From assembly GCF_039555335.1 (NCBI RefSeq), contig NC_092637.1, positions 46,455,613 to 46,519,612 on the forward strand: a DNA stretch of 64,000 bases. Reading direction: 5' to 3'. The notes beneath the pieces are model-generated. The model saw nothing but the letters and a program-made list of their open reading frames with translations, had not been told where the DNA came from and made no database searches. Origin of the DNA: Amphiura filiformis. Lineage: Eukaryota > Echinodermata > Ophiuroidea > Amphilepidida > Amphiuridae. Positions within the stretch are counted from its first letter, which is position 1, and every line of letters starts with the position of its first letter. A program made the position numbers and the translations under genes. Below are positions 3,201 through 63,072 of this stretch, in pieces.

Positions 3201-6200
3201 TACAAACCTGATCATTTCCCCACGTCCCCCTGGATGGGGGAGTGCTTTAATGGAAGTACTAAATATATAATGCATTTCGAATTCCAATTTTTGTTTCAGA
3301 TCCCGAGTGCTTAGCCGATATCAGAGAACTCATTGAAGGAGCGCCAGCAGAAGAGGCCAACGAAGTAGTTGGTCGTACACACGTGCTCCTGGAAGGTTAC
3401 CCCCGGTATTCATGCCGAATGGAAGAATGCAATATGGGTAACCTGATAACGGATGCCATGGTGTGGAAATGGGCCACGTTATACGATGGAGAGGAGGAGC
3501 TGGAAGGATGGACCAAAGTTGCTACTGCTGTGTTTAACTCGGGTGGAATACGAGACTCCATTGAACAAGGTAGTGTGCTCATCTCTTTCAAAGACAGGAT
3601 TTGTTAATAAATACCTACTTACATACCTACCAGATAGCATCATGCATTTCTGGACCTGCTGTCTGATGTAGCAGGTAATTTCATATGGACCGGTCCTTGG
3701 TAGCAACTTCGGCTTCCTCCACAGACCACCTGCTGCCAAGTCTATCCTGGTTTTCCAAGTTGCCCTAGCGCATCCATGTCTCCTTTTTCCGCGTATGGAA
3801 TTATAAAAATAGTGTTATTGGGATGCGACTCTCATACATTCTCAACAGATGAGCAAACCACTGTAAGTGGGGCTTTCGAATGAGCTTCTGTTGCTTTGTC
3901 ATAGATCTTACGAAGTCGTTGGTGATATACTGATATGCTGTGTCAATTTCCTTTGGGTTCTCGTATCAAATGCAGCGATATAATAAATGACATATAAAAT
4001 ACTGACTGTTTGCTTGAAATGGGCAGCAGGTGTTTTTGAATATTTTGTTTCAAAACATAAGTAAATAAAAAATGACATTTAGCTGCAGTTAAATAAACTG
4101 GTATAGTTTTGTTGGGAGGCAGATATATTTTAAAAATTAAAACAATTTCTAATTGCAATTTACAAAGCAGATTTGTTTGACCTTTTTCATCAAAGTCAGA
4201 AGAAATTGGCCAATGTTGACCTTTGACCTTTCACTAATAACTACAGACTGATAAGTCGTAGATAGTTCAAACTATGTAATTTCTGCAGATAAATTCTCGA
4301 GTATGTTTTAATCAAGTTTGAACAATTTTGACCCTTATATAAACTTTGACCTCTGAATTCTGAGATTGCACAATATGGCTCAATGTGGTTTTCCTAACAA
4401 GCAATAGGAGTGCATACTTATACCAATTATATTGCTTATATCACATTTTTGCGGTCAATTGTTACTTACAAGATGACTTTTTCTGCAACCTCATACTCTA
4501 ATTTCGGTTATTCCTTCATGTAATTTTACACGATATTAGGGTTAGGGTTAGGGTTAGGGTTAAGGTTAGGGTTAGTTTAGGGTTAGGATTAGGGTTAGTG
4601 TTAGGGTTAGGATTAGGGTTATGATTATGATTAGGCTTAGGGTTAGGGTTAGGATTAGGGTTAGAGTTAGGATTTAGGTTACACGAAATAATTACATGAA
4701 GGATCGACCCTAATTCCACACTATTTATTGTTCTGAATGGAGTCCCTACACATTTATTTTTGATCCTAAAACTATTCGCTTTGATGAGATAATTATTGTT
4801 AATTTTTATTAGGTTATATATATTATCACTTTGAACAGACAATCTTATGAAAATGAATAATTTCCTTTTTATTTTAACAAGTAACTAATTAAATTGAAAA
4901 GATCTCCAACTCATTATTTGACAAGACTATCCATTTCAATTAGAGAAATATCATGTCCCCCTTCGAATAATCTTGTTAAATTTGAATGGGGGAGGGGGAG
5001 GGGCTAGATTCCAGTTTTGGAGTGCGTAATACAGTACTATAATATGTCAATACCGTTATACACTTCTGACACCATTGTTATGTTAAGGGATGTGGAATGA
5101 GCGTTTCGACAGTATTTTTTGTGGGATATGAGATCACATCAGACATATCGAACTGCATTCTGAATACGAAGAAAGCCCATCTGATATCAAATAATTTTAA
5201 TTTTTTGAAATTCGCGATACAACACAACTTTTATGACAAATTATTAAAATTTGATATTTTTAAAATTTTGATATATAGGCCTAACAGTCCTCGAAGTAAA
5301 CTCGAAGGTCCGTATGCACAAAAGAGTTAGACCGGGTCTAAAGTTAGACCTGGTCTAAGTTGATTTTAGTTCCATCAGGAATGGTCCTTTACTCTTATTT
5401 CCTTCCTAAAGTAGCTAGCAAATTCTAAAGATTTAAATGCAGAGTTCAAAAATAATACAAAATATCTTAAGCAAATGTAAAGGAAAATGTCCTTTCTCCT
5501 GGGACTAAATTCCACTTAGACCAGGTCTAACTTTAGACCCGGTCTAACTCTTTTGTACATACGGACCTAAAAATCTAATGATATGTACTTAAAGCGTATG
5601 TAGCTGGGAGGAAAAGCCGACGATCAATTGAAAATTTTGACCTTTCATATTGAAGTTTATACATTTTCCCCCCCAAAACACTATTTTTTTGGTGTTTTTG
5701 GGAAAAAAATCCATATCTTCAACACGAAAGGTCAAAATTTTCAATTGATCGTCGGCTTTTCATCCCAGCTACATACACTTTAAGTACATATCATCAGATT
5801 TATAAAATTTACTTCGAGTACTGTTAAATATCAAAAATATCAATTTTTAATCATTTGCCATAAAATGTGTATTACATCGCAAATTTCAAAAAAAAAATCA
5901 AAATTATTTGATATCAAAAGGACATTCTTCGTATTCAGAATACAATTCGATATCTTTGGGGTGCTCTCATCTCCCACTGTCCAAACGTTCATACCCCATC
6001 CCTTAATATCGCTAAACATAATTCTACATATAATAAGACACGAAATTAAACACTATGTATTTTCTAAGCACCATTATGCCATTTGATTCTGTATTTTACT
6101 TTGCACAGGTAACATAACGTACCATGACCTGGTCAATGTCCTGCCATTTGGCAACACTCTTGATATAGTGGACTTAGAAGGGAGGTACATCCGGGAAATG

Positions 6201-11079: not shown

Positions 11080-12740
11080 ATAAAGATTCAGGCTAAAGAT
11101 CCCTTCGACTTTATGTTTGTATAAAATGACTTTTAAAACGACGCAAACACATTCTGCACGTTATACAATCACATAATGTTCAGAGTTACATGTATTATAA
11201 TAATTATGATAATAAATACAAGGTGTGTTATGCAAATAGTGCTAGATTCGAGAAGATTTGGGCTACAGAACCCGTAGACGATTTAAAAAAACCCCGACGC
11301 AAACATATTATACGTTCTACACACCAATATTATGTCTAAAGCTATATAATACTTTAATAGGGACTAACAATTAGGGCTGAAGATCCCTGCGACTTTTATG
11401 TTTGTATAAATCGACTGTTTAAACGACGCAACCATATTATGCACGTTATACAATCACATAATGTTCAGAGTTACATGTATTATAATAATTATGATAATAA
11501 ATACAAGGTGTGTTATGCAAATAGTGCTAGATTCGAGAAGATTTGGGCTACAGAACCCGTAGACGATTTAAAAAAACCCGACGCAAACATATACGTTCTA
11601 CACACCAATATTATGTCTAAAGCTATAGACGAATCCAAATCCACGCATTCCTACACCTGACTAGCAGCCTTTAGTTGGGTAGCCGTCGGCTACAATGCAC
11701 CCAAAATGTGAAATGATTCGGCCTTGGCGAAAATTTTAAACTGCATTCCATCACCCGTTTTACACCTTCCGCGAAAACACAGGTAGACAAAAGAATGATT
11801 AAAGTTTACAACACAATAGGCCCTATAGTTCCCTTCGGCAAAACACACATCTTCTACATGGTCTATTCGCTGTTGAAGTGACATCATGAATAATCGGATT
11901 AACTACACCATATCAAACGCTACAAATGGATGTACTTGCGAACAAAAGGACTATGTATGAATAGATGCGACGGGATTACCTGCGGAATTATCTCTATTGT
12001 ATATATTATTCTATTATCCCTCCTCGTCCTTGCATCTTCTCTGGGTGTTAGGCGGCTTTTATTTGCACAATGGGGCGCTCAAAACACCAGGTTGGTACTA
12101 GTGGCTACCCAAAGATGGCCGACCAAATCCTGACCATGACTTGGCTCGTTGGATTCGTCTATATAATACTTTAATAGGGACTAACAATTAGGGCTGAAGA
12201 TCCCTGCGACTTTTATGTTTGTATAAATCGACTGTTTAAACGACGCAACCATATTATGCACGTTATACATACACATAATAAGTCAAGAACTACATGTATT
12301 AAAATAATTATGATAATAAATACATTGTGTAAATTATGCAAATAGATTCGAGAAGATTCGGGCTACAGAACCCCTAGACGATTTTTTAAAGAACGACGCA
12401 AACACATAATACGTTATAGACACATCTATGTCCAAAGCTATAACACGGACAAACGAATCGGGCTAAAGACCCCTTCGACTTTTATATTTGTATAAATCAA
12501 TATTTCAACGATGCAAACACATTACATACACATTATTTTAAGAGCTACATGTATTTATAATCATGATAATAAACAGAGAGTGCACAAATATGTAAATAGT
12601 GCTAGATTTGAGACGATTCGGGCTACAGAGCCATTACACGATTTGATAAAGAACGACGCAAACTCATTATGAACGTTATGTCTGATGCTATAATGCGGAC
12701 TATCGATTCGGACTATCATTTGTATACATGGTATAAGCTT
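11080..12740 (+). repeat. ~280-bp tandem array, four diverging units, split by a transposon
   Basis: Units start near 11084, 11372, 12190 and 12457, each with a GGCTAAAGATCCCTTCGACT-type block, then AACGACGCAAACACATT and AATTATGATAATAAATACA. The second and third units are separated by the TIR element at 11628-12160. The first two full units are close to identical over long stretches, the later ones less so. A last fragment reappears at 13285-13390 beyond a second insertion. Confidence 0.8.
11628..12160. mobile_element. TIR element family, copy B, with 4-bp TATA target duplication
   Basis: Ends GACGAATCC and GGATTCGTC are flanked by TATA on both sides. The neighbouring tandem unit at 11333-11350 has the uninterrupted AGCTATATAATACT, so the pre-insertion site is visible and supports a TATA duplication. 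533 bp, no coding frame of note. Copies A (298-596) and C (16623-17563) are related. Confidence 0.85.
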
Positions 12741-13791: not shown

Positions 13792-14277
13792 TTATTTTTG
13801 TACTGGGGGTCCCGCGGGGGCGGATCTCTCACGTGACTGGGAGTGACTTCTGAACATCTTCACTTTGATTACAGACCCTGGATTATCTACGCTCTGATAA
13901 TGAATCGCGTAGATTTTTGGCAGGTATAAGCAACACAAAGAGAGATATGTATTATATAGCAACGGCACACTCAAAGCGCCAATCTTCTGTGCAACATCAG
14001 TGGCTGTAATATAGACTGGTATGGCAGCGAGACAAACTATCAATGTAGAATAAACGCTAACAGCGATGAACTTGGATTCGTTGAAATTATCTGGTACACT
14101 ACGAGCTCTGAAGGCGTAGTAACAGCACGCAACGATTACAACGACATTGTAGGCACAAGATGCGTAGAAACCATACCCAAATCGGCAGAAGATTTCAAGA
14201 TATGGCTTCCGTCGAGGAGGAATTAAAAGATCTGGTGTTGATGGAGCAAAGAAGATCAATGAGATTGCAACAAGTAC
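13792..14277 (-). CDS. Class C GPCR 3' exon: TM4 end, TM5-TM7, C-tail
   Basis: Acceptor CTGTCTTTCAG on the minus strand precedes 14277; stop TAA is at 13792-13794. 161 residues starting VLVAISLIFFAPSTPDL (second half of TM4). TM5 is YNVVVIVACCYYAF, followed by RSVPDNFNESKFI (family CVPENFNEAKFI). TM6 is STLIVCLAAIPVYI, and TM7 ends in the PKxY motif LPKIYAIHY. The TM6 tryptophan usual in mGluRs (IIWLAF) is Cys here. The tail is only about 35 residues and Ser/Arg-rich. A phase 0 join to the 26264 donor restores a continuous TM4. Confidence 0.92.
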   Translation of the reverse strand, partial: VLVAISLIFFAPSTPDLLIPPRRKPYLEIFCRFGYGFYASCAYNVVVIVACCYYAFRARSVPDNFNESKFIAVSVYSTLIVCLAAIPVYITATDVAQKIGALSVPLLYNTYLSLCCLYLPKIYAIHYQSVDNPGSVIKVKMFRSHSQSRERSAPAGPPVQK

Positions 14278-17200
14278 CTGAAAGACAGGAAGGAAGAAAC
14301 TTAATAATATACTCTAAACATGTTTTTGAAGCGCTAAACCGTGTTTTAAAACCTTTGTATGAGTAGTTTGTTCAGAGGCACCCCTTTTGAGCAAACGTAA
14401 GGCCTCACAAAAATTCGTTATAGATACATTAAGGTGGTACTACACCCCTGGCAAATGTTGTGCCAATTTTTTTTTTCAGCACAGACAACAGTTGAGGAGT
14501 TACAGTTAAAAATGAGGGAAAACCAATATTTGGTCAATAAATCAATAAATAACTACTTGTCTTGAGTTGATGAATTTCCAGTGCAGTAGTTGTAGTCCTT
14601 GTCCCTATAATATACATATCTTCCTTGTCACCAACGCGTTACAATTTTTTGAGAAAATACAAAAATAGGCAAAAAAATTGCCATGGGTGTAGTACCACCT
14701 TAAACTTTATTATTATTAATCGTCCGTTCATTAGCGGAGGTCAATACAGGTTGCTACTTCCGGTTAGATGACACAGTGTCCCGCTACCACCAACATATCA
14801 ATTTGTAGGAGCTATTTAGCAAAGTCATAGAACATTGAATCTACAACCGTGTGACAAACAGGCGAAAACAGTAACTTTTTGCACAAGATTGGCAATTTAA
14901 TGAGTTTTGGCAATTGCTCATTGAAACGAAGCTAGTATATGGACAATAAGTGTTTTCTTTCAATTGACATACAATTTGAAAAATATTGTAAGGAACACTT
15001 GCGGTTTTGACTTTTAAAACCTACATTTTGGTCAAAATTTGTGCTTGGATGGTTTAAATTGTAATATGAGAGCAACTTTTAGAATTCAGGTCTAAAAAGT
15101 GCATGTAACAAGTTGACCTTCGCATTTATGGAATCACGCATATTAAAAGTAGTGTTGTCAGGAAATATAGTGCATTTTGGCAAAAATCAAATACCGGGTT
15201 TGTTACTACGTGAATAATAAGGTTTGTACTGTGACATTTGTTTATTGCATCTTGTTTGAAAAAAAAATAAAACAATTAATTCTGACGGTACAGTTCTTTC
15301 AGAGACACTGATGGGCGTATACACAATTCCATAAACCGGGGGGGCGCAAATTATCTTTGGTATGACAATAATATATGGTCGCAAAGCGGCCATCGCTTCG
15401 CGTTTGCGTGACACAGAGGGTGTCTGAGTTGGGTGTCAGGGGCTATTTTAGGGAGGAAAAGTCACTGCACGCCGGTAAATGGAACGTTTCCGGAGTCACC
15501 TATCTGTCGCTGTTGTTAGCAATACGCAGATCTAGCCCAGTCGGAGAGGGGGGGGGGGGTTACCAAAAGATTATCAAATGTGTAAATCATTAAAAAAAGT
15601 TTGGTGCACCATTTTCGCACTATTAGTGCTATAAACAAAAAAGTGTATGAAGTACCGGTGTCTAGACCAGAAACCAAAATCTACACTTCTTTGTATCCAT
15701 AACACAAACATATAATGTAGCCAAGGGAGTAGGCATCTTTCTTGGTTGTGGTGGTTGTGGATTGTATGGGGCAAAATCGGTGATACATATCCTTTAATAT
15801 ACCGGTTTTTTTAGAAACTGTACATTTTGTGTTTGAGCTTCTAAAAAAGGACACAATTTTGCCCCGAGATCGGTGGTGGGAAATAGGTTCCTTGCCAATT
15901 TTCTTGTCGATTATCTTCTCAATTTCGCTATCATTTTTTTGTCAGAGGAGGGCACTTTTCTCCTTCATTTTTTGACGTTTTGGGAAAATAATGTCTGCAA
16001 TACGAAAGGTCAAAAAGAAATATGTTCAAATGATAGTCGGCTTTTCCTCCCAGCTACATATACTTTAATTACACATCATTTGATTTATGAAGTTTACTAT
16101 GAGGACACTTAAATGTAAAAAATATCAATTTTTAATTATTTGACCTGTGAAATTTGTATTATATCGCAAATTTCAAAACATCTAAATTATTTAATATCAC
16201 CAGGATATTCCTCATACCGTAAAACCCCGTCTACAAGCATATAGAGTGCTTCTGATAAAAGCTAAATTAATCCAGGCGCCATTTTGGAATTAGAGCAAAT
16301 AAATTATAGATCCAAGCACATACAAACAAGTATTATTGTAAGACCATTCTATTGTATTTGCATATTTACGCATATATCGTATTAATTTAACTTTCATCAA
16401 AAACACTATATTTGCTTGTAGACGGGGTTTTACGGTATTCAGAATTTAATTTGATGTGTCTGATATGTTTTCATGTCCCACAAAAAATACTGTGCAAACG
16501 TCGCTATCCGATCACTTAATTCAGCAAGTTTTTTCACTAAAGAAGTGACAAAGCTCTACAAGCTTCATCGGTAGGGAAGCAAACAATTAACAATAGCGAA
16601 ATTATATCTAATTCTTTGTATAGACGAATCCAACGAGCCAAGTCATGGTCAGGATTTGGTCGGACATCTTTGGGTAGCCGCTAGGACCAACCTGGTGTTT
16701 TGAGCGTCCAATTGTGCAAATAAAAGCCGCCTAACACCTAGAGAAGATGCAAGGACGAGGAGGGTTAATAGAATAATATACAGTGAGCCAAAGAATTAAG
16801 GTACCAGTTTATGTTCACCCATGTATATCTAAATAAAGACAAATATGTCAAAATTAAAACAAGCAGTCAATACCTGTACTCTTTAGCTCTGATTTAAGAC
16901 CTTATTTGTTGAAATTGGTTAAAAATTAAAGAAAAGGTGATCTAAAACCTAATGAAGAAATGAAATCAAAAGTTGCACTTTTGTGTTCTAATCAATGAAA
17001 GCACGACGCTAGTTTTAACGTGTTAATCAATGGAAGCGCAGCGCTAGTTCTCTTGTTCACGAACACTTTGTGTACAAATCAATAGGGCATTTAATACAGC
17101 AAACTGCAACTTTTAAATTGGTATCTTCCTTGGGTTTGGGGATCGCCGTGACTTTATTTCTTGAACAATTTCAACGAATGAGGTTTTAAATTCGAGCTAA

Positions 17201-20200
17201 AAGATGCGGCTATTGGCTGCTGGTTCCAATTATGACATATCTGTCTTTGTTTAGGATATACAGGAGGTGAACGTAACTGGTACCTTCATTTTTTGGCTTA
17301 CTGTATATAATATAGATAATTCCGCAGGTAATATCCCATCGCATCTATTCATACATAGTCCTTTTGTTCGCAAGTACATCAATGCATAGATACCGCGTGT
17401 AGTTAATCCGATTATTATGTATTAAGGTGTAAAACGGGTGATGGAATGCAGTTTAAAATTTCCGCCAAGGCCGAATCATTTCACATTTTGAGTGCATTGT
17501 AGCCGATGGCTACCCAACTAAAGGCTGCTAGTCAGGTGTAGGAATGCGTGAATTTAGATTCGTCTATGAGCTGAACTGAATTTCAGACAATGCAAAGTCA
17601 AACTTACGGTTTTTGTATATACTTGCTTTTAATATAGACGGAATAAAATTCTAAAAGCTTTTATCTGTAGTGTAACAATAGTAAAATTGATATGGAATAA
17701 TAATAATAATGATTATAAAATACTAATAAATTACACCCAAATACAATGCATACTCTTGGTCCAATGCTTTTATTTTCTTTCCTTTGAATTCTGTCTAATG
17801 CATTCCATTGTTCAACTTAATTCAGTACAACTAATGGATATTCAAGGTCATGTCTAACCATTTTTAAGATAACAAAGAAAAGTTTTTATAGTTTTGTGTT
17901 CCTGATAAAAGCGACCAGGGTGTCAAACTCGAGGTGATTTTTCAACAAACATGACAAAAGGCCGAGAACCTTTGCTTTATTATCATCATTATGAAGGTGA
18001 TTCGTCGACGGTTTTCAGCTCAGAGAAAAGGGTTCTGATTTAGCGAAATAAATCTGGAGAACTAGTCTTGTCACTCTGCAGCGTTGAGGTTGAAATAGGG
18101 TTTTTCAGACCAATCCCAAATTGTTCCTCTTGTTTCTGCTGAAAGTCAAATCCACATAAATGTATTTCCAATTTCGTCTTTGTACCAAAGGCTGCAGTAA
18201 TATTAAAATGTGAAAACCTAGTGGACCTAATTTGGTGCCTTGCGGAACCCCCTATTGATAGAAACACTTATCCTCTACTCAGAGAATATACTGCTGTACT
18301 ATACAACTTGAGACACGTTGTGTAACAAATTCCATATCCAGAGTGCGATGGTTCTACACAAACACCCATATCAATTACTCATAACACATGTATGTTACAG
18401 ACATTTGATGAAATGTACATACGTCAGCGTATTTTGCTGGTCGCAGTAGTGAATCTCGTGCGTAAAGTTAATCACGTTGAGCGTACACTCACGTGTACAA
18501 GAGCACATTGATGCCACGCGTGCGGCCCAACCACGAATAGACATTGACGTCACTACCGAAATTGAATATTCCATTCAAGTAAAACATCCACACCGCATAG
18601 GCATAGGCGTCAATAGGGGGGGTTGTAACAGGGGGGCGTGCCCCCCAACACACCCCACACACATACTTTTCTGCAAAATGACCAATTTTGTTATTTTCAG
18701 CCACTTCTTTAACAATTTTGGCCGGTTGTCAACCCCCCACACACATTTGAAGCCCAATTGGTGCTAATGAGGACAAGGGTATTAAAATGCATGAGAAACA
18801 ATGTACAGCTAATGTCCGTGTGTTATGTGTAGTTAATATATATGTGTGTTTATGTAGAACCAACTTATTGTCTTTGCGACACTCGGCGTGACGTTTTTAG
18901 CCACTAATAAATGTTGTGCAAACGTATAATAGCTCTCTGATCACTTAATTCAGCAAATTTTTCACTAAAGAAGGAACCAAACTCTAAAAGCTTCATCTGT
19001 TGGGTAATCAAAAAAGTAACAATAACGGAATAATATTTAATTATTTTTATAGCGCCGTAAGATCTGCTCTGAACTTTAGAAAATTCTAAAAGCTTTTATC
19101 TGTAGTGTAGCAATAGTAAAATTGATATTTCATTTGTGCAGCTACTTTTTAAGTGCGTCGTAAGATGTTCTTTGAACTGGACTTACTTTCCATAAGTTTC
19201 TAGCCTTGATTCAAGGCTTCTGCCTTTTTCCTCTTCTTTCTTCCTTTTTTAAAAATTACTTTACTTTTGCTCGAAATTGAACATGAAACCTTTAAATACC
19301 CAATTGACTATAAAAGGCCTATATTGCTTCAATGTTTTTTCTGAACTATTTCCAAATCATTCTTGGATGTCATTCTATCCATGCATGCACTGAGCATGCT
19401 GGTTTTGACCACAGAGGGGCCTGAGGGTTCATGTGTCTGACCATGGTCTGCCTTCCCTGATCTAACCTGGAAATCCCTGCTGGCTGCTTACAATAGCATC
19501 AAGCACACTGTATACAAGAGACAGGGTATTCTCACACTAAAGGACATGAGGCATGGCTGGATGATGTTCTGTGCATGTTGTGTGGCCATGGTTTTAAATA
19601 GGTTTATATACCAATGGATATAAATGAACAATTGATAGAAAAATGCATCAGTCTATAGAAAGCCTGAGGACTTGGAGCAAGTCTAATAAGTTTCTTGTAG
19701 TACTTGCTTTTAATAAAAGCTTATATGATATGTAGTGTAACAATAGTAAAATTTATCTTCGATTTCGTAGTTACCTGTTTTGTTAGATGTGCGGTGAACT
19801 GGAATTAATTCCGATAAATATAAAGCAAATATATTTAATTCTATCCCCCCTTTGCGAGCCTTGTCACTATTTATGATATTAGTTTGACTAGAGAAGATGA
19901 GAAAAGACAAACTCTTGACTTGATGAATTCCAAGAGCAAACAACGTATGCCGAGAATAGTAGCAATCCAGAAACCGCGCTATATCATAGAACTTGGCTAT
20001 ATCCAGAGAAATCCTTGAAAAAGCGCGCAAAATTTTGACTTTTACTGCTTGGACGGCGCTCAAGACACGTGCTCTCCCCAGGCGGTGATGGAAGCGATAT
20101 CGCCAATTTTGAGGTCGCCATTGGATTAACACATAATCATGAAATCTTCACAAACAATTCTAAATTTGTTATGTGGCGTCAAAGCAAAATTATCTTACTC

Positions 20201-35300: not shown

Positions 35301-35488
35301 CACTGAAAAACTATTCATTTTAAGCGGTATGTTAAGCATGTTTTAAAATCAAACGAAATCGGTATTTCAGAAACCATCAGAGCCATCGTTAAAATCTTGT
35401 CTACCGCCATCCCTTTTACCAGGTTTTGATTACAATCATTTCAGTCACAAGAGGGTCCGATACCGTATCGGAAATAATTGGTTAAGTG
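32383..35488. other. Intergenic, no gene recognised
   Basis: AT-rich DNA. A (TTAA)n run lies at 34427-34445. Open stretches of 60-85 codons exist on both strands but none resembles a known family. Confidence 0.5.
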
Positions 35489-35490
35489 TA

Positions 35491-35944
35491 CAGTATGCCA
35501 AAGAATTAAGGTACCAGCAATGTTCACCATATATCCTACACAAAGACATATATGGCATAATTGGAACCAGTAGTCAATAGCTGCATCTTTTAGCTCGAAT
35601 TTAAGACCTCATTTGTTGAATTTGTTCAAGAAATAAAGACACGACGATCCAAAACCCCAAGGAATATGCCAATTTAAAAGTTGCAGTTTGCTCCATATCA
35701 TGCCATATTGATTTGTACACAAAGCGTTCGCGAACAAGAGAACTAATGCCATACTTCCATTGATTAGCACGTAAAAAATAGCGTCGTGCTTTCTTTGATT
35801 AGAATATAAAAGTAAAACATTTGATTTCGTTTCTTCATTAGGTTTTAGATCACCGTTTAATTCTCAACCAATTTCAACAAATAAGGTCTTAAATGAGAGC
35901 TGCAGGGGTGAACACTACGGGTACCTTAATTTTTTGGCTTACTG
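35491..35944. mobile_element. Palindromic MITE, CAGTRWGCCAAAGAATTAAG family, copy 2
   Basis: Starts CAGTATGCCAAAGAATTAAG and ends AATTTTTTGGCTTACTG, flanked by TA at 35489-35490 and 35945-35946. The interior (ACCAGTAGTCAATAGCTGCA, TTTAGCTCGAATTTAAGACC) matches 16781-17303. Confidence 0.88.
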
Positions 35945-35946
35945 TA

Positions 35947-38134
35947 GATACAGCCAATGCGATACAAACGCACGTCTAAACGTGTGTATTAAACGCACCT
36001 TTCTCTGTGCATTGTAAACAGTAGTCAGGTTAGTCATTGAGACTTCTGTGGCTCTGTCGTAACATCTGGTGAATATGAATAGATGGTTCCAGGCAGGGTT
36101 CGAAATAAGGCGCGTTGTTGCGTCAAATACCCGTGATAGTAGGCGTGGACCCGCAAATTTCCTACGGTACGGCTCCGCGTTACCCGTAAAAATTGAACTA
36201 GGCAAAAGAGCAGAACTTTTTGTTGTTCCACTGGAAAATATTGTTCACATAATACGTCCGGCTTCCTGAGTACACTTTCATTTTAGTTTCCCATCAATTT
36301 TTCAACCCGGGTTTTCAATTTTTTACAATGTACATGCCGTGATCGCCGTAACTAATTCTCTCTATTGATACCCTTGGATTGTTTTTTCTTATTTGGAGGC
36401 TTGGTTCCAGGTAAACAAAATAATTATCTGTTAAAGCCCTAATGTACGATTTCGTTCAAATTCTAAATTTGTTATTCTGCACTCGTACTCAAGACGCTGA
36501 AAAAATACTAGTAATAATAATCTTTGATGGCCGCAGAATGGAATAACCCACGGGGTACTCAACCGTGTAGTATTTTACAACTTCAGTGGCGTATCAGGGT
36601 CAGTTGTCCAAGGGGGCAAAGACAAAAAAAATCTGGTGGGCATTATTTTGGTCCTGTGTTAACATTTTTTTACCTTGCAGGCCAATATTTAGATTTACAC
36701 CATTTTTGGTAAGATAAGGGTTAAATTGTGTGTTTACCCGGCTAGCTTTTAATTTTAAGTGGGGTTATGGGTTTGAAAATTTTAGGGGGTTGGTTTTAGG
36801 GTGTTGACATTTGGGGGGGGGGGGGGGTTGGGGATGATATTTTCTTTTGGGCGGTTGAGTTAAGAAATCAACTCATTTAAAGGGGTTCAACCAACCACCA
36901 CCCCCGCAAAGACAACAATGGTACTCAGTACAAATGACCATACGTCATAAAGAGCCGCAAAAATGGGTCTCATTTGGGGTCTCTTGGTGAAAAAAAAAAT
37001 ATCACAAATTTCACCTAACTGGGCATTTTTATGAGATTTTGTAACAATGCCGAGAAAATTGTTTTAAATTTGGCCAAAATATCTGACTATCGTGGGCATA
37101 GTACATCCTGACTATCACGCCCTCTGTGATGATAAGCTGGATTCGCGGTTGTTTGATGTGATCATTTATTATTTTTTTCTAACTAATAGTTTTCAATTCT
37201 AGGCCTAGACAATATGAACAGCTTTCATGCTAATATACATATTTTTAAAAACTATTTTAACATTTTCATTTTTTTCATCTTTTTCTGCCTTTTTTCTGTA
37301 ATTATTATTCTATATATTGTATAGTTGTGTGTAAATTGAGGGCGCTTTTTACATATATTTTAAGTTTACTTTCACCCAATAATTTCATTTCAGGATGAAA
37401 TAATTTTAGAATTTATTTTTTGCTATTTGTTACTCATTTTTAATGCAATTATACAAGTATCTACCACTTCTAAATATGCAAACAAGATTGAAGATAAATA
37501 GCGCCATCAGTGTAATAACTTTGCTTTAAAATGAATACAGTTCTACGTACCATCAACAACCGTGGATTGCTTTATCCGGATGGTAAGCCCCATGGGAATT
37601 TGGGTGTACTATAGCTTTTGTGATAGTGTATCATTTTTCATACATGCAACCAGGGGAATTGGCAATGGAGGAAACAGCAGGACAATGGGGCATGTAAATC
37701 CCCGTGTATGGGGAAATCATACTTAAAAATAAGTACTTTCCAGGACCAGTCGGATCGAGACAGTACAATCTACCGTTATCAGGTTAAAATAAAATATTAT
37801 TATGATAAGAAAAAGAATATATTTTTTTTGTATGACGAATAAAAAAATGTAAAGAATTTATTTCTGTGATTATATCCAGCCACGTGGAGGGAATATTTAT
37901 TTGGCACAAAACGTGCAATATTCACACAAGTCTTGAATCGTGTGGACATCCTGAAAAAGATATGTTTGAAAACATGCTCCCCCCAGATGAAAATGTTTAT
38001 AGATTTGGAATAGTGTAGTAAAATGTAATTGTTACAAATATAAGGAATATTGTAAACAAATAAAATAACGGGACTTTGACTCTATAGTGAAATTTTGTAT
38101 ATTTGGATGGTAGGTCTACTATAATGCTGCTATC
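35947..38134. other. Intergenic, no gene recognised
   Basis: Holds the CAGGGTTCGAAATAAGGC motif at 36099, seen in many animal repeats, and a G run at 36808-36828. 36600-36900 is G/T-rich. No supported gene. Confidence 0.45.
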
Positions 38135-40272: not shown

Positions 40273-40592
40273 GACGTTTTAAAACCCTTTTCTTTACCTT
40301 TATGTCGGGTGTTATTTAGACTTTAAAACATGTATGATTAACTGTCACTCAGCTTCAGGAGGTATTTTGGGTACAGGGCGTTAGTCCGACATGCCGCTAG
40401 TCCGACACGTCGCTAGTTCGAATACGAAATGCACTGCACCAGTCCGATACGCCGCTAGTCAGAAACTGGAGAAAGCTGCGCTAGTCCGAAATTCGAATCA
40501 GCGCAGAATTTTGCAGTGATGCCAAAGCGCAGGCCTTGTCGTTTCAACGTTGGGACTTCTTTTACATTTACAACGTGTTTTTGGTAGACAGA

Positions 40593-40899
40593 ATACGCTG
40601 GCGAAGTTACGTAATTAATCGGATTAATTACCATAGCAATAGGTGAAAACAATTTTGAACATATCGCGCTGCACTACAAGCAAGTTACACTCATCACCTG
40701 TGTATGTCTGCAATCATAGATTGAATACAATACTGGTCTTTTCAAAGATACTAATCTTACAGGTGCAAGTAATCAGCATGATATGGTTCAATGAAGAGGT
40801 ACCGTGTGAACGTATCCGTGCAGCGCGGTATATTCAAAAATTGTTTTCACCTATTGCTATGGTAGTTAATCCGATTATTACGTAACTTCGCCAGCGTAT
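40593..40899. mobile_element. Palindromic element with ATACGCTGGCGAAGTTACG ends
   Basis: ATACGCTGGCGAAGTTACGT at 40593 and its complement ending at 40899 continue to pair through TTACCATAGCAATAGGTG and GAAAACAATTTTGAA for about 70 bp. Confidence 0.85.
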
Positions 40900-43063
40900 G
40901 GACCTAAACTGTGCAAATCAAAAAAACCAAATAAACACTATCTTGCTCAAAAGGGTGCTGACTCTTGTTAAAGATGTTCCTTGTAAGCACATGAGACAGC
41001 TTACACTCCATACCCTTTGCACTGAGATTTCGCGGCTTGCTCTTTGTTATGATAATAACTTTCCATATTTTACGTTTCTAAACAGGTGAATAGGCATGAA
41101 AAGATTCGCACGACTATAATATAATTACTTAATATCACATTAGTGTGCTCATAAAATGTAATGTCGCATTTAAGGCATGTGCACTTAATGGGAAATATCT
41201 GATTTGCTTCGCATATTAATACATAATGTATTGTTCACACAATGTTGCTATCACCATGTGTTGATAATATCTATAATGTACTTTTTTTAAAAATAACTTA
41301 ACTTGGGGATTCATTTGAAAAAAATCCAAATTCTAAGGGGCATATCTCTCTTCACACACACCCCTTCTACTACGTCGGGCAAGCCTACATCCCAAATCTT
41401 ATGGCTACGGGTTTGGTAAAGCCCCCTGGGTACAATGTTTCTTGACAAGCCTGCTTGACAATAAATGTGGTACAGGGTGTCCCAATAAAAACAGAACCCT
41501 CATTGCGCCCTATTTTTCTCCTATTTTGGAAAAGTTGATCAAATATATTTTGGTATGTAAAGAAACTTAAATCGTTAGTTTTAATAAGCCAAAACAATTA
41601 TTTCAATCGGCTCGCAATTTTTGAAGATATGCCCTCTTTCAGAAATGTACCCGGTTTCACTCTGTCCACGGATGAGGTTTGGCTACATCAAAGATTAAAA
41701 CGAAACATACGGTTAATGATATAGATAGATGACAGCATTAGGCTTTGGAACGTATTCACTATGAGCGAGAATTGCCAGCTAGCCTCCAACATCTTCGCAA
41801 CAATACTACAGCTGCATTTGCAAGTATACGGCGTACAAGGGGGGGGGGACGCAATGCAATTGATGCAAAGGGATGAAATCTGTATTTGTCAAGGAGGCAA
41901 CCAGGTAGAGGGCAAAGCAGCATACTAAACTCACTTAAGAAGAACCCAAGGACATACCAAACAGCCTTTTTCAGGCTACCTTTTATCCCCCAAAGAGAAA
42001 ATGACACTGTAAAACAAGCAAGAAACAACAGAGTAAGGAAGTAAGAAACGTAATAAAACAAAGAGGTATAAATAACCAAGAAAAAAAAGTTTAATTGCGA
42101 TTTTTTCCGTTTCGCATAAATGGACTTGACTTGACCTCCGGTAAATATTCATCGATGAAAGGCACAAATTCGAGAGGGTCTAATTTTTGTTACGTTATGC
42201 GCTTTTGAGGTTACGCTTTTGAAAAAGTTCTTTTATTAGGATTTTGTTTCTTGTATGGATGGACTTGTTAATATTTATCGAAGAAAGAAAGAAAGAATTA
42301 AAAGTGTCTAATTTTGTTTTGTTTTGTTTTATGCGTTTTAAAGGTTACACTGTCGGGAAAGATCTTTTATCCGGTTTTTTTTCGCATAAATGGACTTGAC
42401 TTGACCCCCGATTAATATTTATTGAAGAAAGCAAAAATTCGAGAGGGTCTAATAATTATTTTTTGTTACGTTATGCATTTTGGTTACACTGTCGGTCTTT
42501 TATCCGGATGTTGTCGCATAAATGGACTTGGCAGGACCTGCGGCAAAGATTTATCGAAAAAAGAACAATTCTAAGGGGTATAATATTTTTGTATGCGTTT
42601 TGGAGGTTACACTGTCGGAGAAGTTCCTTTATCCGGATGTTTTCGGATAAATGGACTTGACATTACCTTCGGTTGATATTTAAATTTAAAATTCAAAAGG
42701 GTCTAATTTTTGATACGTTATGCGTTGTATATGTTATATTACATTGTCGAAAAAGTTCTTTTAGCCGGATTTATTTCACCTAAATGGACTGGTCTTGACC
42801 TCCGGTTAATATTCATCGAAAAAAGGCGCAAATTCGAGAGGGTCTAATTTTTTGTTACGTTATGCGTTTTGGAAGTTACACTGTCGGAAAAGTTCTTTTT
42901 TTGCATAAATGGACTTTACTTTACCTCCGGTTAATATTTTTTGAAGAATGAAAAAATCAAAAGGGTTTAATTTTTGTTACGTTGTGCGTTTTATAGGTTA
43001 TACTGTTGGAAAAGTTCTTTTATTCGGATTTCTCGCATAAATGGATTCGCATAAATGGACTTG

Positions 43064-44713
43064 GCTGCGAATATAACAATATTCAATGTGGAGTGCCCCA
43101 AGGATCAATCTTGGGCCCATTATTATTTCTTTTGTATGTAATTGAATTTATATTGTTTGCAGACGATACCACCATCACCTATTCACATACAGACATTTTG
43201 TCTTAGTATGATCTAGTTAATAAAGAATTACTTGAAGTCAATAATTGGTTTAAGGCGAATAAGCTATCCGTTAATGCAAGTAAGACCAATTATATGGTTC
43301 TTGGAACTAACCATAAAAAATCACGTATATCAAATAATGCAAAAAGAAGATATCATATTGGACAATACTAGAACGGGTTGACAAGATCAAATTCCTAGGA
43401 GTGACAATGGACGAAAATTTGACATGGAAAACTCACATTGATAATATATCAAAGAACAATTCCAGAGGTATTGGAGTAATAAACCAAAATTGTACCAGAG
43501 AAAGTTTTATATTCACTATATTGCACATTAATTCTTCCTTATATAAATTATGATATTTTAGCATGATGAAATACATGTAAGAAATACTTAGACAAGATTT
43601 TTGTACTGCAAAAAAAAGCACTTAGAATCATTTCAAATAGTCATTATTTATGTCACTCTGCTCCTATTTAAAAAAAGTATGGATTACTCAATGTTTATGA
43701 ATGAATTAAGCATATTTGTGACGTGTCATGTCAAAAGGAGACACTTTTGGGCAGGATCATAAATGGAGAAATAGCCAAATATCTGCCCGGGGTGATTTTT
43801 TTCACAATTTGGGTTTGTTGCGAATTTGTGATGTTATTAATGTTTAAAATATTATCTGATAGTTTCAGACCGGAATATAACTGGCATCTTATATTTTAGA
43901 CATTTTTCAAGATAATTCCTACTCTCAACATTGTCAATAATATTTTTAAAGGCCGATATCTCAATTTCCAATTTTATAATACCATAAATTACGAACTCAA
44001 TATCTTCGCTTAGGAATGTCCGATTTCATTGGGGAAAACGTAATTGTGGAGCAAAATATCTCTATATTTAAGGTATGTAAAAACCTCAAAATTGGTAACC
44101 TGCCCAAAAGTGTCTCCTTTTGACATGACACGTCACATTTATGTATAAACATTTTTCAAATCAGTTACCTGTAGCATTCGACAGCTATTTCATGCAGCAG
44201 ATAAATCGACATAAGTACCACACAAGAAATGCCGATGACTATAATATATGTGATACAAAAACAGAATTTGCACACAAAACAATAAGAGCTGCCGGTCCTA
44301 GGATATGGAATATTACTGATAAATATATAAAGATGGCAAAATCAGTAAACCGGTTTAAGTTACAAATAAAGAAAAGTCTAATAAAAAATTACATCTAATA
44401 TTTAGGCATTATTTAATGACCTCACCCATCCCCACCCATCTCGATCCCAACTATCGATTTCTTGCGTGAACTATGGAATGTCTATTTATTGAAATGTTAT
44501 AAATATTTATATTGGTTCTTTCTTTGCATGTTCTTCTCCTCTTTCTTTTTTCTTTTATTTGTAAAGTTTGTGTAATTGTATGTTGTATCGTAGGGTAGTG
44601 TAAGGGGGTGCTCGCTTCAGGCCTTAGAGCATCTCCTCATTCAAATTTTGTGTCTTTTATATATATTTTGTATGTTGATTTGAATGAAATAAAATGATCA
44701 TGTATGTATGTAT
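43064..44713 (+). mobile_element. 5'-truncated LINE (jockey/CR1-type reverse transcriptase remnant)
   Basis: Reads QCGVPQGSILGPLLFLLYV, then LFADDTTI (the FADD active-site motif) with a short internal deletion between them. WFKANKLSVNASKTNYMVLG and LTWKTHIDNISK follow. After the nested MITE come MYKHFSNQLPVAF and AGPRIWN. It ends AATAAAATGATC plus (ATGT)n. GACTTG precedes it (43058-43063) and follows it (44714-44719) as a target duplication within the 131-bp array. Frameshifts and stops show it is dead. Confidence 0.9.
43718..44136. mobile_element. MITE with perfect 38-bp TIRs inside the LINE
   Basis: Positions 43718-43755 and 44099-44136 are exact complements (GTGACGTGTCATGTC...). ATTT flanks it at 43714-43717 and 44137-44140. 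Removing the 419 bp and one ATTT restores LINE reading (ELSIF then MYKHF). The perfect ends make it the youngest dateable insertion of this stack. Confidence 0.93.
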
Positions 44714-45319
44714 GACTTGACATACGGTTAATGTCGGAGAAAGACAACAGTTTGAGGGGGTTATTTTTTGTTACGCATATGCGCTTTATGTCGGAAAAGT
44801 TGTTTTATCCGGACTTGTTTTTCGCATGAATGGACTTGACCTTATCTTCAGATATGTTATGGAAAAAATTCTAGAGGTTTTGGACCACTTCGGCACAAAA
44901 ACAAATGTTTCGTCATGCGTCAGCCATGCTGAAATTTGCCGTAACGTAACAAACTTGTTGAACGGCACTTAGCAAACTCTGTAGATACTTTTTAATATAA
45001 TATCACATTAGCTTACTCGGAAAATGTAATGCCGGATGCCGCATTCAATTAAGCCATGTGCACTTAATGGATTATATCTTATTCTTTTCACATAATTATT
45101 TATAGTTGACGCACTGTTACCTATAATAAAATCAAGTATATCACAATGTGTTGATAATGTCTGTAACGTACTGTTTTGCAAAAATGTTGCACTAAATGGC
45201 TTAAGGGATCGGATAGCAACGTTTGCAAAGTATTTGAATTGTTTTCGAAATGCCGATATAAAAAACACATTTTATGTCAATGTATTAAAAATGCATTATG
45301 TTAGCCGAAAACCTGAACG

Positions 45320-46040
45320 GGCTACACCGCTCAGTCCGACACGCCGCTAGTCCGACACGCTTCTAGTCCGACACGCCACTAGTCCGACTACACAAATTTC
45401 ACATACTTGGGTGCGTCACTCCGAAAATGAAAACCACTGCACTAGTCAAAAAAAACATGCGCTAGTCCGAAAATGAAAACCACTGCAACAGTCCGACACG
45501 TCGCTAGTCCGAATCTGCAAACACTTTTTAGTCCGACACGCCGCTAGTCCGAATTCGACATACACTGCACTAGTCCAAATCTGGAAAACACTTCTGCAGT
45601 CCGATACTACACTAGTCCCAATTATTAAAACACTGCGCTAGTTCGAAGTTGAAAAACACTGCGTTATTCCGAATCTGGTAAACACTGCGTTATCTTCTAG
45701 CACAATGTTTTTCAAATTCGGACAAGCGCACTGGTTTTCAGTTTGGATTAGCGCAGTGTTTTTAGATTCGGACTAGCACAGTGTCAGACTAGGGGGTGTT
45801 TCCCAGATTCGGACTAGCGCAGTGGTTTTCAGTTTCGGACAAGCGCAGTGGTTTTCAGTTTCGGACAAGCGCAGTGGTTTTCATTTTCGGACTAGCTGCG
45901 TGTAGGACTGACATTGTGTATTTTCGATTCGGACTAGCTGCGTGTCGGACTGGTGAAAATGCATTTCAGATTCGGACTAGCGGCATGTCGGACTAGCGGA
46001 GTGTTGGACCAGTGGCGTGTCGGATTAACGCCTTGTACCC
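45320..46040. repeat. Head-to-head arrays of CTAGTCCGAC-type units
   Basis: From 45330 to about 45690 units read CTAGTCCGACACG, alternating with CTAGTCCGAAAATGAAAAC and CACTGCA. From about 45690 to 46040 the same units run in the other orientation (TTCGGACTAGCGCAGTGG). A single-orientation array is at 40378-40500. Confidence 0.88.
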
Positions 46041-59000: not shown

Positions 59001-62000
59001 CCCTTGCGAACTCGCATCCTCCTGGTTTTATGCATTGGCTTTCGTTATTGGAAATCTTCATACATATTCATACAAGTTTGAATTCGTTTTCTTAAATTGT
59101 ATTTTTATTTGGCCATTTTAGGAGAGAGAAATTTAAATTATGTTACAGCAACGAGTCAATTTTGCCTTTTATTGTATTCGTTAATTTTGATGTGATTTTC
59201 AAGTAGCCATGTTTTGTGTCCATATTAACATATACTGATAAATAATGACCCTTTTGATTTTCAGATATTGACGAATGTGAATGTGATCCATGTGCGTATG
59301 GTAATTGTATTGACGGAGTCAATGGATTCACCTGTGAATGTGCTGCTGGATATACCGGAACACTTTGTGATAGTAAGATAGTATTTTGTTTGCTCATCGA
59401 TATATATGACTAGTATTATTAAAATAACATTAGCTCCGCTTATAATCATCTATAATTTTTACATTTCGTGTTTTGGGAAAGTTAACAGAAAGCACAACCT
59501 CAAAAGTACGATGTAAGTGTTAGTACGTTTGTTACAAAGGACTGATAAGTAGTGAAGCCAATATGCTTCACCGTAGCAGAGAGTAATAGGGTGTAGGTGC
59601 ACCTTCGGAAATATACTTGTAATCAACGTTTCTAGATCAGAAAACATGCGTAAAAAGATCAGATATGTTATCAAATTTAAAAAGTGTCATTTTGGGTCAA
59701 TTGAGGTCGATTGAGAAGAAAGTATAGTTTGACCTATATGCAATATATCGTGCATTAGTTATGAGTGCGAGGGGGGCAGTTTTTTGGCCACATGGGTCAA
59801 AAACTGAAAGTGCTCCGATTTCAACAAAACATGATGTCAAATTGTTCTCCATGTAAAATGAACTCAAATAAAAAATTGTTCTCACCTTCTTGGACGCTTC
59901 GTTACCTAGGAAACATCATAAAAAAGGTCATGGTCAATAGCCCTAATAAGCTGCAATGGAGGTTGATTTTGGGGGGAATTTTGGCAATAAAAACCATTGT
60001 AGACAGTGCAATGCTGAAGGGGCAGGCTAGGCCCTCCTTCCTGCTAAACTATAAGAAAAAGTGCGAATCGGAAATACATGAATAATAACATCGTCTTCGG
60101 TCATAATACTAACCTAACCTCCTTTGGCGGAATATTCTAGTATATATTCGGAGTATTGGACCGGACACTGGAAATATATTGTTCATATTGCTGCTCGTTT
60201 TACAAATTAAATTATGCTTTGGTTAATCCGTCGGCTGTATTCCAAAGTGGCTTTTAATGATTTTTGGTCATTTTAATGATGTTCTCATCAGTCATAATTA
60301 GCTAATTGATTAAATGTGTCGTATAATTACAAAGTGACATTTTTTGTATTCCATAGTGTCGTATCGACCATACGCCACTTTGTATACACATTTGATAATT
60401 AACAAATATAGGCAAAATGAAAAACATTTTATGTCATAGTGGCGTACACCTCGCTACATGTCATAGTGACGTATCGTGACATATACGCCACTATGGAATG
60501 AAGCCGACGAAAAGTAACGCCATAGGGATTACACGGCGATCGATGTGGCGTAATGTTAATATTAGGTTAGGGTGTTGCGTTTTGTGTGTTTTCCATAGTG
60601 GCGCACAGTTTTGTACTTTTTGTTTTAGTTTGCCAACAATATTATGTATTTATTTACTTTGAAAAATATATAGAAATAAAATCTATTTAGTTAACTACAG
60701 AAATTTCACATCATTTACAAAATATGATGAATGTCTGATTTACACAACTCGATTTTAAATTGGTATTTCTTCAAACCCGATTTTCTCGAAAAGTTGTTTA
60801 TTCGCGATGCCTCACTATACGCCACTATGGAATACAGCCGAATCGATCAAATATAATTTAAAAAAGTTTTACCTCATGAAATCTCGTCCTCCTGACAACA
60901 CTTGCATAATGCAATTTAAGTACATAATAATGTTTGTATATTGGTTAATTTCCAGTTCCGATCTTGACTACACATGGGGCAACGACGATAGCGGCGACAA
61001 CAGCAGCAACACCTGAGGCCACGCCTGTCGCCACACCTGAGGCGACGACGGCAGCAGTGACACCTGAGACAACACCTGAGGCGACGACGGAAGCGGCGAC
61101 AACAGCAGCGACCATTGGCAGCACCAGTAGCCCCGGCAGTAGCCCCAGTAGCCCCGGCAGCAGCCCCGGCAGTAGCCCCAGTAGCCCCGGCAGCAGCCCC
61201 GGCAGTAGCCCCAGTAGCCCCGGCAGCAGCCCCGGCAGCAGCTTCAGTAGCCCCGGCAGTAGCCCCGGCAGTAGCCCCGGCAGTAGCCCCGGCAGCAGCC
61301 CCGGAAGTAGCCCCGGTAGTAGCCCCGGCAGCAGCCCCGGCATCAGCCCGGCAGCAGCCCGGTAGCCCCGGCAGTAGCCCCGGCAGCAGCCCCGGCAGTA
61401 GCCCCAGTAGCCCCGGCAGTAGCCCCGGCAGCAGCCCCGGCAGCAGCCCCGGAAGTAGCCCCGGTAGTAGCCCCGGCAGCAGCCCCGGCAGTAGCCCCGG
61501 CAGCAGCCCCGGTAGCCCCGGCAGTAGCCCCGGCAGCAGCCCCGGCAGTAGCCCCGGCAGCAGCCCCGGCAGCAGCCCCGGCAGTAGCCCCGGCAGCAGC
61601 CCCGGAAGTAGCCCGGTAGTAGCCCCGGCAGCAGCCCCGGCAGCAGCCCCGGCAGCAGCCCCGGCAGCAGCCCCGGCAGCAGCCCCAGTAGCCCCGGCAG
61701 CAGCCCCAGTAGCCCCAGCAGCCCCAGTAACAGTTCTAGCAGTTCTAGCGGCTCCAGCCCCAGTATCTCCAGCAGCTCCAGCGGCCCCAGTAGCTCTAGC
61801 AGCCCCAGTAGCCCCAGTAGCTCCAGCAGCTCCGGCGGCACCGTCAGCTCCAGTAGCTCTAGTAGCCCAAGTAGCTCCAGCAGCTCCAGCATCCCCAGTA
61901 GCTCTAGCAGCCCCAGTAGCCCCAGTAGCTCCAGCAGCTCCGGCGGCACCGTCAGCTCCAGTAGTTCCGGAGACTCCAGCAGCTCCAGCTTAGGTGGTTC

Positions 62001-63072
62001 TAGTAGCTCTAGCAGTATCGGTGGCTCCAGCAGCTCCGGCGGCACCGTCAGCTCCAGTAGCTCCGGAGACTCCAGCAGCTCCAGCTTAGGTGGTTCTAGT
62101 AGCTCTAGCAGTATCGGTGGCTCCAGCAGCTCCGGCGGCACCGTCAGCTCCAGTAGCTCCGGCGGCACCGTCAGCTCCAGTAGCTCCGGTGGCACCGCCA
62201 GCTCCAGTAGCTCCGGAGACTCCAGTAGCTCCAGCTTAGGTGGTTCTAGTAGCTCTAGCAGTATCGGTGGCTCCAGTAGCTCCGGCGGCACCGTCAGCTC
62301 CAGTAGCTCCGGCGGCACCGTGAGCTCCAGCAGCTCCGGAGACTCCAGCAGCTCCAGCTTAGGTGGTTCTAGTAGCTCTAGCAGTATCGGTGGCTCCAGT
62401 AGCTCCGGCGGGACCGTCAGCTCCAGTAGCTCCGGCGGCACCGTCAGCTCCAGCAGCTCCGGAGACTCCAGCAGCTCCAGCTTAGGTGGTTCTAGTAGCT
62501 CTAGCAGTATCGGTGGCTCCAGTAGCTCCGGCGGGACCGTCAGCTCCAGTAGCTCCGGCGGCACCGTCAGCTCCAGTAGCTCCGGTGGCACCGCCAGCTC
62601 GCTCCAGCTTGCAGGTGGTTCTAGTAGCTCTAGCAGTATCGGTGGCTCCAGTAGCTCCGGCGGCACCGTCAGCTCCAGTAGCTCCGGCGGCACCGTGAGC
62701 TCCAGCAGCTCCGGAGACTCCAGCAGCTCCAGCTTAGGTGGTTCTAGTAGCTCTAGCAGTATCGGTGGCTCCAGTAGCTCCGGCGGCACTGTCAGCTCCA
62801 GTAGCTCCGGCGGCACCGTGAACTCCAGTAGCTCCGGCGGCACCGTGAGCTCCAGCAGCTCCGGCGGCACCGTCAGCTCCAGCAGCTCCGGCGGCACCGT
62901 CAGCTCCAGCTCCGGTGGCACCGTCAGCTCCAGCAGCTCCGGCGGCACCGTCAGCTCCAGCAGCTCCGGCGGCACCGTCAGCTCCAGTAGCTCCGGCGGC
63001 ACCGTCAGCTCCAGTAGCTCCGGAGACTCCAGCAGCTCCAGTGATCCCGTAATGACCTCTCACCCCAAATAG
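56082..63072 (+). CDS. Secreted EGF-domain protein with Ser/Thr/Pro-rich tail (gene span)
   Basis: Three exons (ATG 56129; 56129-56429, 59265-59372, 60956-63072) with phase 1 introns total 2526 coding bases. Order: signal peptide, Ala/Pro-rich linker, partial EGF module, calcium-binding-type EGF module, about 60 Thr/Ala/Pro residues, then several hundred Ser/Pro/Gly residues. There is no membrane segment or GPI signal, so it is probably secreted and heavily O-glycosylated. The last exon has an in-frame TAG at 61363-61365 because three CCCC runs are CCC. The three deletions together restore frame. This could be sequence error in a hard repeat or a real broken allele. No family name can be given beyond EGF/mucin-like. 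Confidence 0.75.
56129..56429 (+). CDS. EGF protein exon 1: signal peptide and first EGF-type module
   Basis: Start [19 protein letters not shown] is a clear signal peptide. Then CGYGPGFGC, an Ala/Pro-rich linker and an EGF-like end: [17 protein letters not shown]. Only four cysteines of the usual six are present, so this is a shortened or atypical EGF. A pyrimidine tract and AG at 56081 suggest the transcript exon begins at 56082 after an upstream untranslated exon. Donor GTAAGT follows 56429. Confidence 0.82.
56430..59264 (+). other. EGF gene intron 1
   Basis: AT-rich. A pair of diverged repeats (ACTGAACAATAGTGCATTCA... and AACTGCAACTC at 58030-58105; again 58265-58325) is visible. An 83-codon stretch without stops but without Met lies at 58599-58847. 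No splice pair makes it an exon of this gene. Confidence 0.5.
59265..59372 (+). CDS. EGF protein exon 2: calcium-binding-type EGF module
   Basis: Acceptor GATTTTCAG ends at 59264; donor GTAAGA follows 59372; 108 bases, symmetric phase 1, as usual for single-module EGF exons. It reads [20 protein letters not shown] and [14 protein letters not shown], with six cysteines and the DECE start and internal Asn typical of calcium-binding EGF. Confidence 0.93.
59373..60231 (+). other. EGF gene intron 2, left part
   Basis: No repeat or exon recognised up to the TIR element at 60232. Confidence 0.45.
60232..60840. mobile_element. TIR element with CGGCTGTATTCCA ends and GTGGCGTA subterminal repeats
   Basis: CGGCTGTATTCCAAAGTGGC and the complement of GCCACTATGGAATACAGCCG match at 19 of 20. 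Inside, CATAGTGGCGTA and TACGCCACT motifs occur at least five times in both orientations. 609 bp, no coding frame. It ends 115 bases before the exon 3 acceptor. Confidence 0.8.
60956..63072 (+). CDS. EGF protein exon 3: Thr/Pro then Ser/Pro/Gly low-complexity region
   Basis: Acceptor AATTTCCAG ends at 60955. In phase it reads [14 protein letters not shown], then repeated ATPE, then SPGSS repeats and longer units with [19 protein letters not shown] and SSSSSIGG. It stops after DPVMTSHPK at 63070-63072. The Ser frame moves after 61341-61362 (two missing C, TAG at 61363) and returns after about 61612 (third missing C). CCC|GTAATG near 63048 could be a weak donor to a further exon. Confidence 0.7.
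61115..63050 (+). repeat. GC-rich coding repeat tract (AGCCCCGGC and AGCTCCAGC units)
   Basis: 61130-61700 is built of 9-15 bp AGCCCCGGCAGT-type units. 61700-63040 is built of AGCTCCAGTAGCTCCGGCGG-type units with longer super-repeats of about 100-140 bp marked by AGCTTAGGTGGTTC. It is markedly GC-rich against the AT-rich surroundings. It lacks stops in several frames on both strands. Confidence 0.9.

Follow-up and report, generated by a model that had tools for sequence, protein, structure and literature searches.

Foldback families in which the terminal repeats are built of short tandem units are already known. FB of Drosophila and TU of sea urchin, likened here by description alone, share their general architecture with two short-unit arrays that we describe from the ophiuroid Amphiura filiformis; FB and TU have target duplications of 9 and 8 bp, and none was seen here. 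The arrays lie within positions 40369-46040 of a 64,000-nucleotide stretch of contig NC_092637.1 (assembly GCF_039555335.1, positions 46,455,613 to 46,519,612 of the forward strand), referred to below as the window, and a first-pass annotation of this DNA had taken them for the two sides of a single candidate foldback element.

Three further families were compared from their published descriptions. Tm1, a Mutator/Foldback family of root-knot nematodes, resembles the present arrays in the variable number of tandem units (13-15 bp) that follow a short end motif, in the unequal unit number of the arms of one copy, and in having copies without coding potential (PMC3169594). It differs in its quoted unit and end motifs, which are unlike the ends and the two unit types (A and B, see below) found here, in the 8-10-bp target duplications of 45 of 53 complete copies, where none was found here, and in its middle sequence, of which the right-hand candidate copy here has almost none (PMC3169594). 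Galileo, of the P superfamily in Drosophila (PMC3688188; PMC3573991), is similar in that some copies consist of two terminal repeats only, unit number changes, and there are chimeric copies without matching target duplications (PMC3573991); in one Galileo subfamily, tandem units in the long terminal repeats hold binding sites for the transposase (THAP) (PMC3688188). Likened by description alone, Galileo differs in the ~210-bp units of its group F, its 7-bp target duplication and its known transposase gene (PMC3688188; PMC3573991). Tetris of Drosophila virilis shares the foldback anatomy, tandem units in terminal repeats, an apparently non-autonomous nature and rearranged copies, and differs in its units of about 220 bp and its 8-10-bp target duplications (PMC4079207). 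Set beside these families, the A. filiformis locus has opposed arms formed by terminal inverted repeats with tandem repeats inside them. The target site duplication, 7-10 bp in the compared families, was not found.

Here we propose, with about even confidence, that the arrays stem from a foldback-type DNA transposon, non-autonomous and moving by cut and paste, and that one is a nearly complete copy and the other a remnant. The right side, about 45319-46040 (0.72 kb), would be a nearly complete compact copy with opposed AGTCCGA arms and almost no loop; the left side, from 40369 to about 40559, would be an end fragment of a second copy; and the DNA between them would be genomic sequence with other repeats, mutually invaded. 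The parts of the arrays are as follows.

40369..40490, plus strand: left end with its plus array (units A A B A B, then a partial one); from end comparison, core cutting and a unit hidden Markov model (HMM)
40491..40559, minus strand: possible head-to-head extension of the left array by decayed minus units (weak, post hoc); from tile scoring
45319..45331, plus strand: possible decayed end at the front of the right inner arm; from an anchored end test
45332..45696, plus strand: right inner arm, 16 plus cores; from core cutting and the unit HMM
45697..46040, minus strand: right outer arm, 15 minus cores, terminating in the 22-bp end at 46019-46040; from cores, end comparison, the unit HMM and folding

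The matching 22-bp ends noticed in the first-pass annotation are present. The left end GGGTACAGGGCGTTAGTCCGAC (40369-40390, plus strand) and the right end GGGTACAAGGCGTTAATCCGAC (46019-46040, minus strand) are inverted relative to each other and identical at 20 of 22 bases, and in an ungapped comparison across the window the runner-up 22-mers match the left end at 15 of 22 bases and all lie inside the arrays.

Units were defined by cutting at the core TAGTCCGA, with cores counted at up to two mismatches. The AGTCCGA units are of two kinds, A of 16 bp (TAGTCCGACACGCCGC) and B of about 26 bp (TAGTCCGAAACTGAAAACCACTGCGC), and judged by eye from aligned units, B looks like A plus about 10 bp inserted. 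The earlier description of tandem short units stands, with its single unit of alternating blocks recast as two types. Core-to-core spacings (n=34) are 16 bp in 15 cases and 25-27 bp in 16, with 20, 24 and 37 bp once each; they are not independent values, because units arise by duplication. The string CTAGTCCGACACG (up to two mismatches) occurs 13 times in the window, every time within the two arrays, compared with a mean of 0.29 and a maximum of 2 in 100 shuffles. The opposite orientation of the arrays on the two sides, claimed previously, was also seen by core cutting. The left array is short (five whole units and one partial, 40382-40490) and reads A A B A B plus the partial unit from its end inward, while the right outer arm reads A A A B A B A B B B B A B B B. 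As had been claimed, the right side forms a head-to-head double array, with plus units over 45332-45696 (16 cores, 45332-45665) followed by minus units over 45697-46040 (15 cores, 46027-45725), the strand flipping at about 45697. Unit and end strings were absent from the searched literature apart from one unrelated paper, three patterns had no match in a viral contig collection, and Rfam at gathering thresholds returned nothing. One pattern matched a marine gammaproteobacterium in a genome contig collection; this was a lone core pair in the 261 bases around it and was taken as chance.

Folded as single-stranded DNA, the right side (45302-46040) reaches -203.6 kcal/mol (mean of 20 shuffles, -96.7) in a nearly loop-less hairpin (z -24.75) that none of the 20 shuffles equalled. 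Read from outside, its two arms have a similar unit order, with 13 units in common (p about 0.03; 9 in a reversed control). The left array matches the right outer arm at 82.9% over 82 bp in inverted orientation (blastn self-comparison). Among 11 five-unit registers the best has an offset of 1 and a score of 96, the other ten scoring 37-88; this fit, one unit off the end-aligned register, is compatible both with one element and with two copies.

Further points that speak for two copies are the inverted 20/22 ends without a target duplication outside them, the unrelated elements nested inside, the right hairpin, and the like unit order from the ends (left, A A B A B; right, A A A B A B). That each copy was built head-to-head is favoured because end-like bases precede the right inner arm and the left array may itself flip strand. 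Before the inner arm, a possible decayed end at 45319-45331 (plus strand) scored well when anchored there (shuffle p 0.0056), its score being equalled at 0.98% of window positions over the 14 bases compared. On the left, the candidate minus units at 40491-40559 score 21.0 with a three-B query, a value reached by none of 1582 tiles.

Several results weigh against this proposal. The left side (40369-40560) folds no better than expected by chance (z -0.73, equalled by 48 of 200 shuffles), and the test for its minus units was devised post hoc, after inspection of the sequence: they exceed the best control tile by one point only (21.0 against 20.0), with a B-A-B query 13 of 1582 tiles do equally well, and neither the unit HMM nor folding detects them at 40491-40559. 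The possible inner end is not significant in an unanchored, free local test at 45300-45331 (p 0.17-0.23); the same bases are better fitted by a decayed B unit than by the end (p 0.003). In permutation tests the fit of the left array to the right outer arm is not significant (p 0.29 and 0.18), nor is it with the first seven units (p 0.28 and 0.09). Between the two right arms, similarity is not significant with free unit order (p 0.12), and position-by-position orthology within unit type, as a recent, simple inverted duplication would predict, was absent (p 0.67). Finally, the right-hand element alone (45318/46040) has no convincing target duplication, only a 4-bp match, and matches of 4 bp or longer also occur in 559 of 3000 random pairs.

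The DNA between the arrays holds several nested repeats, listed here in order. The nested MITE-like and LINE elements, like the weak minus continuation of the left array, go beyond what the first-pass annotation described.

40593..40899, no strand: MITE-like (miniature inverted-repeat transposable element) inverted-repeat element 1; from self-comparison; no 4-12-bp target duplication found
41130..41293, plus strand: direct repeat, first copy; from blastn self-comparison and alignment
42110..43063, plus strand: tandem array of ~131-bp units, first part; from repeat detection and self-comparison
43064..44713, plus strand: 5'-truncated long interspersed nuclear element (LINE) inside the 131-bp array; from its RVT_1 match
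43711..44143, no strand: MITE-like element 2 within the LINE, with 45-bp inverted ends; from self-comparison
44714..44850, plus strand: tandem array remnants past the LINE; from self-comparison
44998..45183, plus strand: direct repeat, second copy; from blastn self-comparison and alignment

The internal 131-bp tandem array and the internal direct repeat described in the first-pass annotation were both recovered, the former at 42110-43063 with remnants past the inserted LINE, the latter at 41130-41293 and 44998-45183. The array has seven adjoining units of 125-138 bp at 42110-43030 (unit starts placed by hand), and the copies of the direct repeat are 68% identical, with an alignment score of 157 (highest of 300 shuffles, 71). 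The LINE ends in a tail of short repeats, and its reverse transcriptase matches RVT_1 at E 9.5e-7 and 29.2 bits, slightly under the curated Pfam threshold of 29.6. GACTTG stands on both sides of it (43058-43063 and 44714-44719) and is possibly its target duplication, an ambiguous one because units of the 131-bp array themselves hold GACTTGACTTGAC; a search at the slightly different borders 43065/44704 gave none. The inverted ends of MITE-like element 2 are 95.6% alike, with the 4-bp repeat ATTT at its borders. A coding member between the arrays, which had been suggested as something to look for, did not appear: no transposase was found by Pfam in six frames of 40490-45330 at E up to 1, the only matches being RVT_1 in the nested LINE and an MgtS-like one at E 0.1. 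Non-autonomous copies carry no transposase, so this result does not discriminate between the Mutator superfamily (MULE, Mutator-like element) and the P superfamily. A motif at 41473, which we take to resemble a mariner end, has no partner in the window, and a search there for a repeat string known from other invertebrates gave no match. Just inside the right array, 45201-45235 is 91% alike, over 35 bp and in opposite orientation, to 16485-16519; the two are probably part of another dispersed repeat.

The two array patches cannot be shown to be ends of one element, and what stands of the first-pass reading is the foldback-like anatomy (inverted ends, opposed short-unit arms, a strong right hairpin); the single element at 40369-46040 is not supported, given the missing target duplication, the lack of inverted similarity between the inner flanks and the presence of both arms on the right alone. 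A composite 5.67-kb foldback element spanning 40369-46040 is nevertheless a possible reading, which we regard with some doubt. In it, the left array and the right outer arm would be terminal inverted repeats, moved through the transposase binding set out below, the interior a former middle domain later invaded by the LINE and the MITE-like elements, and the right inner arm an internal inverted duplication. It gains from the intact 22-bp end on both outer sides and on neither inner side, from the better fit of the left array to the right outer arm (best 96) than to the inner arm (best 84), and from the unequal arm lengths of Tm1 (PMC3169594). It leaves the additional plus array on the right unexplained, its interior has neither a transposase (Pfam) nor a match to the arms (blastn self-comparison, E 1e-3), and no inverted sequence is shared between the inner flanks (p 0.29). 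Target duplications, which the first-pass annotation had proposed to look for, were likewise not found at the outer ends 40369/46040 (4-12 bp, slips of up to 3 allowed). This is a lack of support and no disproof, because 2441 of 3000 random pairs also have none; a duplication could have been lost by decay or recombination. It would also be missing if ends of different copies had been joined by recombination, a variant of the composite element with a precedent in chimeric Galileo copies without matching target duplications (PMC3573991).

An origin without any transposase, by which satellite-like repeats were spread by recombination or replication slippage and the shared 22-bp ends mark an ancestral duplication, appears improbable. 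The missing target duplication, the lack of a coding member between the arrays (Pfam) and the varying number of tandem units all agree with it; however, transposon ends predict just such an inverted 22-bp end at the outer border of each array with the arms directed inward, and a large hairpin of opposed arms is atypical of a simple satellite.

For two foldback copies, we infer mobility, protein binding and the existence of two separate copies. A transposase encoded elsewhere would bind the repeated AGTCCGA cores near each end, the repetition offsetting weak specificity at single sites; bound transposase would pair the two ends and then move the element, and the arms would acquire or lose units by slippage and unequal exchange. 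Transposase binding to the tandem units has support from precedent, because Galileo units hold such sites (PMC3688188). More speculatively, and at rather long odds, the arrays would represent a foldback family not yet described, mobile as a hairpin of two unit types with almost no loop. Its core spacings of 16 and ~26 bp (1.5 and 2.5 helical turns) would place neighbouring transposases on opposite DNA faces, and two such hairpins could move the intervening DNA as a composite transposon. As it stands, the locus is mainly an example of nested repeats able to imitate one larger element. Confirmation across the genome would add to the known foldback families one whose very short units come in two lengths and resemble binding sites; such a family would be useful for understanding how repeated ends serve transposase recognition and how opposed arms grow.

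The window has a GC content of 37.5% and carries coding pieces of a class C G protein-coupled receptor (GPCR) and a 5'-nucleotidase (Pfam), in keeping with animal DNA. At 11625-12166 and 16616-17567, inverted repeat pieces (165, 144 and 51 bp; 95-97% alike) flank about 4.4 kb with a class C GPCR coding piece (13795-14313); this may be a large transposon or an inverted duplication of recent date. Two MITE-like elements at 16773-17311 and 35477-35958 are mutually inverted and 88% alike over 329 bp. Each has its own inverted ends, 52-57 bp long and 77-81% alike. Several overlapping inverted repeats cluster within 900 bp at 5083-5977. A very long short-repeat array at 61125-63041 (periods of, for example, 12, 27, 96 and 123 bp) is open in several frames, and an internal array at 4536-4671 of about 23 TTAGGG units, 83% matching, is telomere-repeat-like inside the chromosome.
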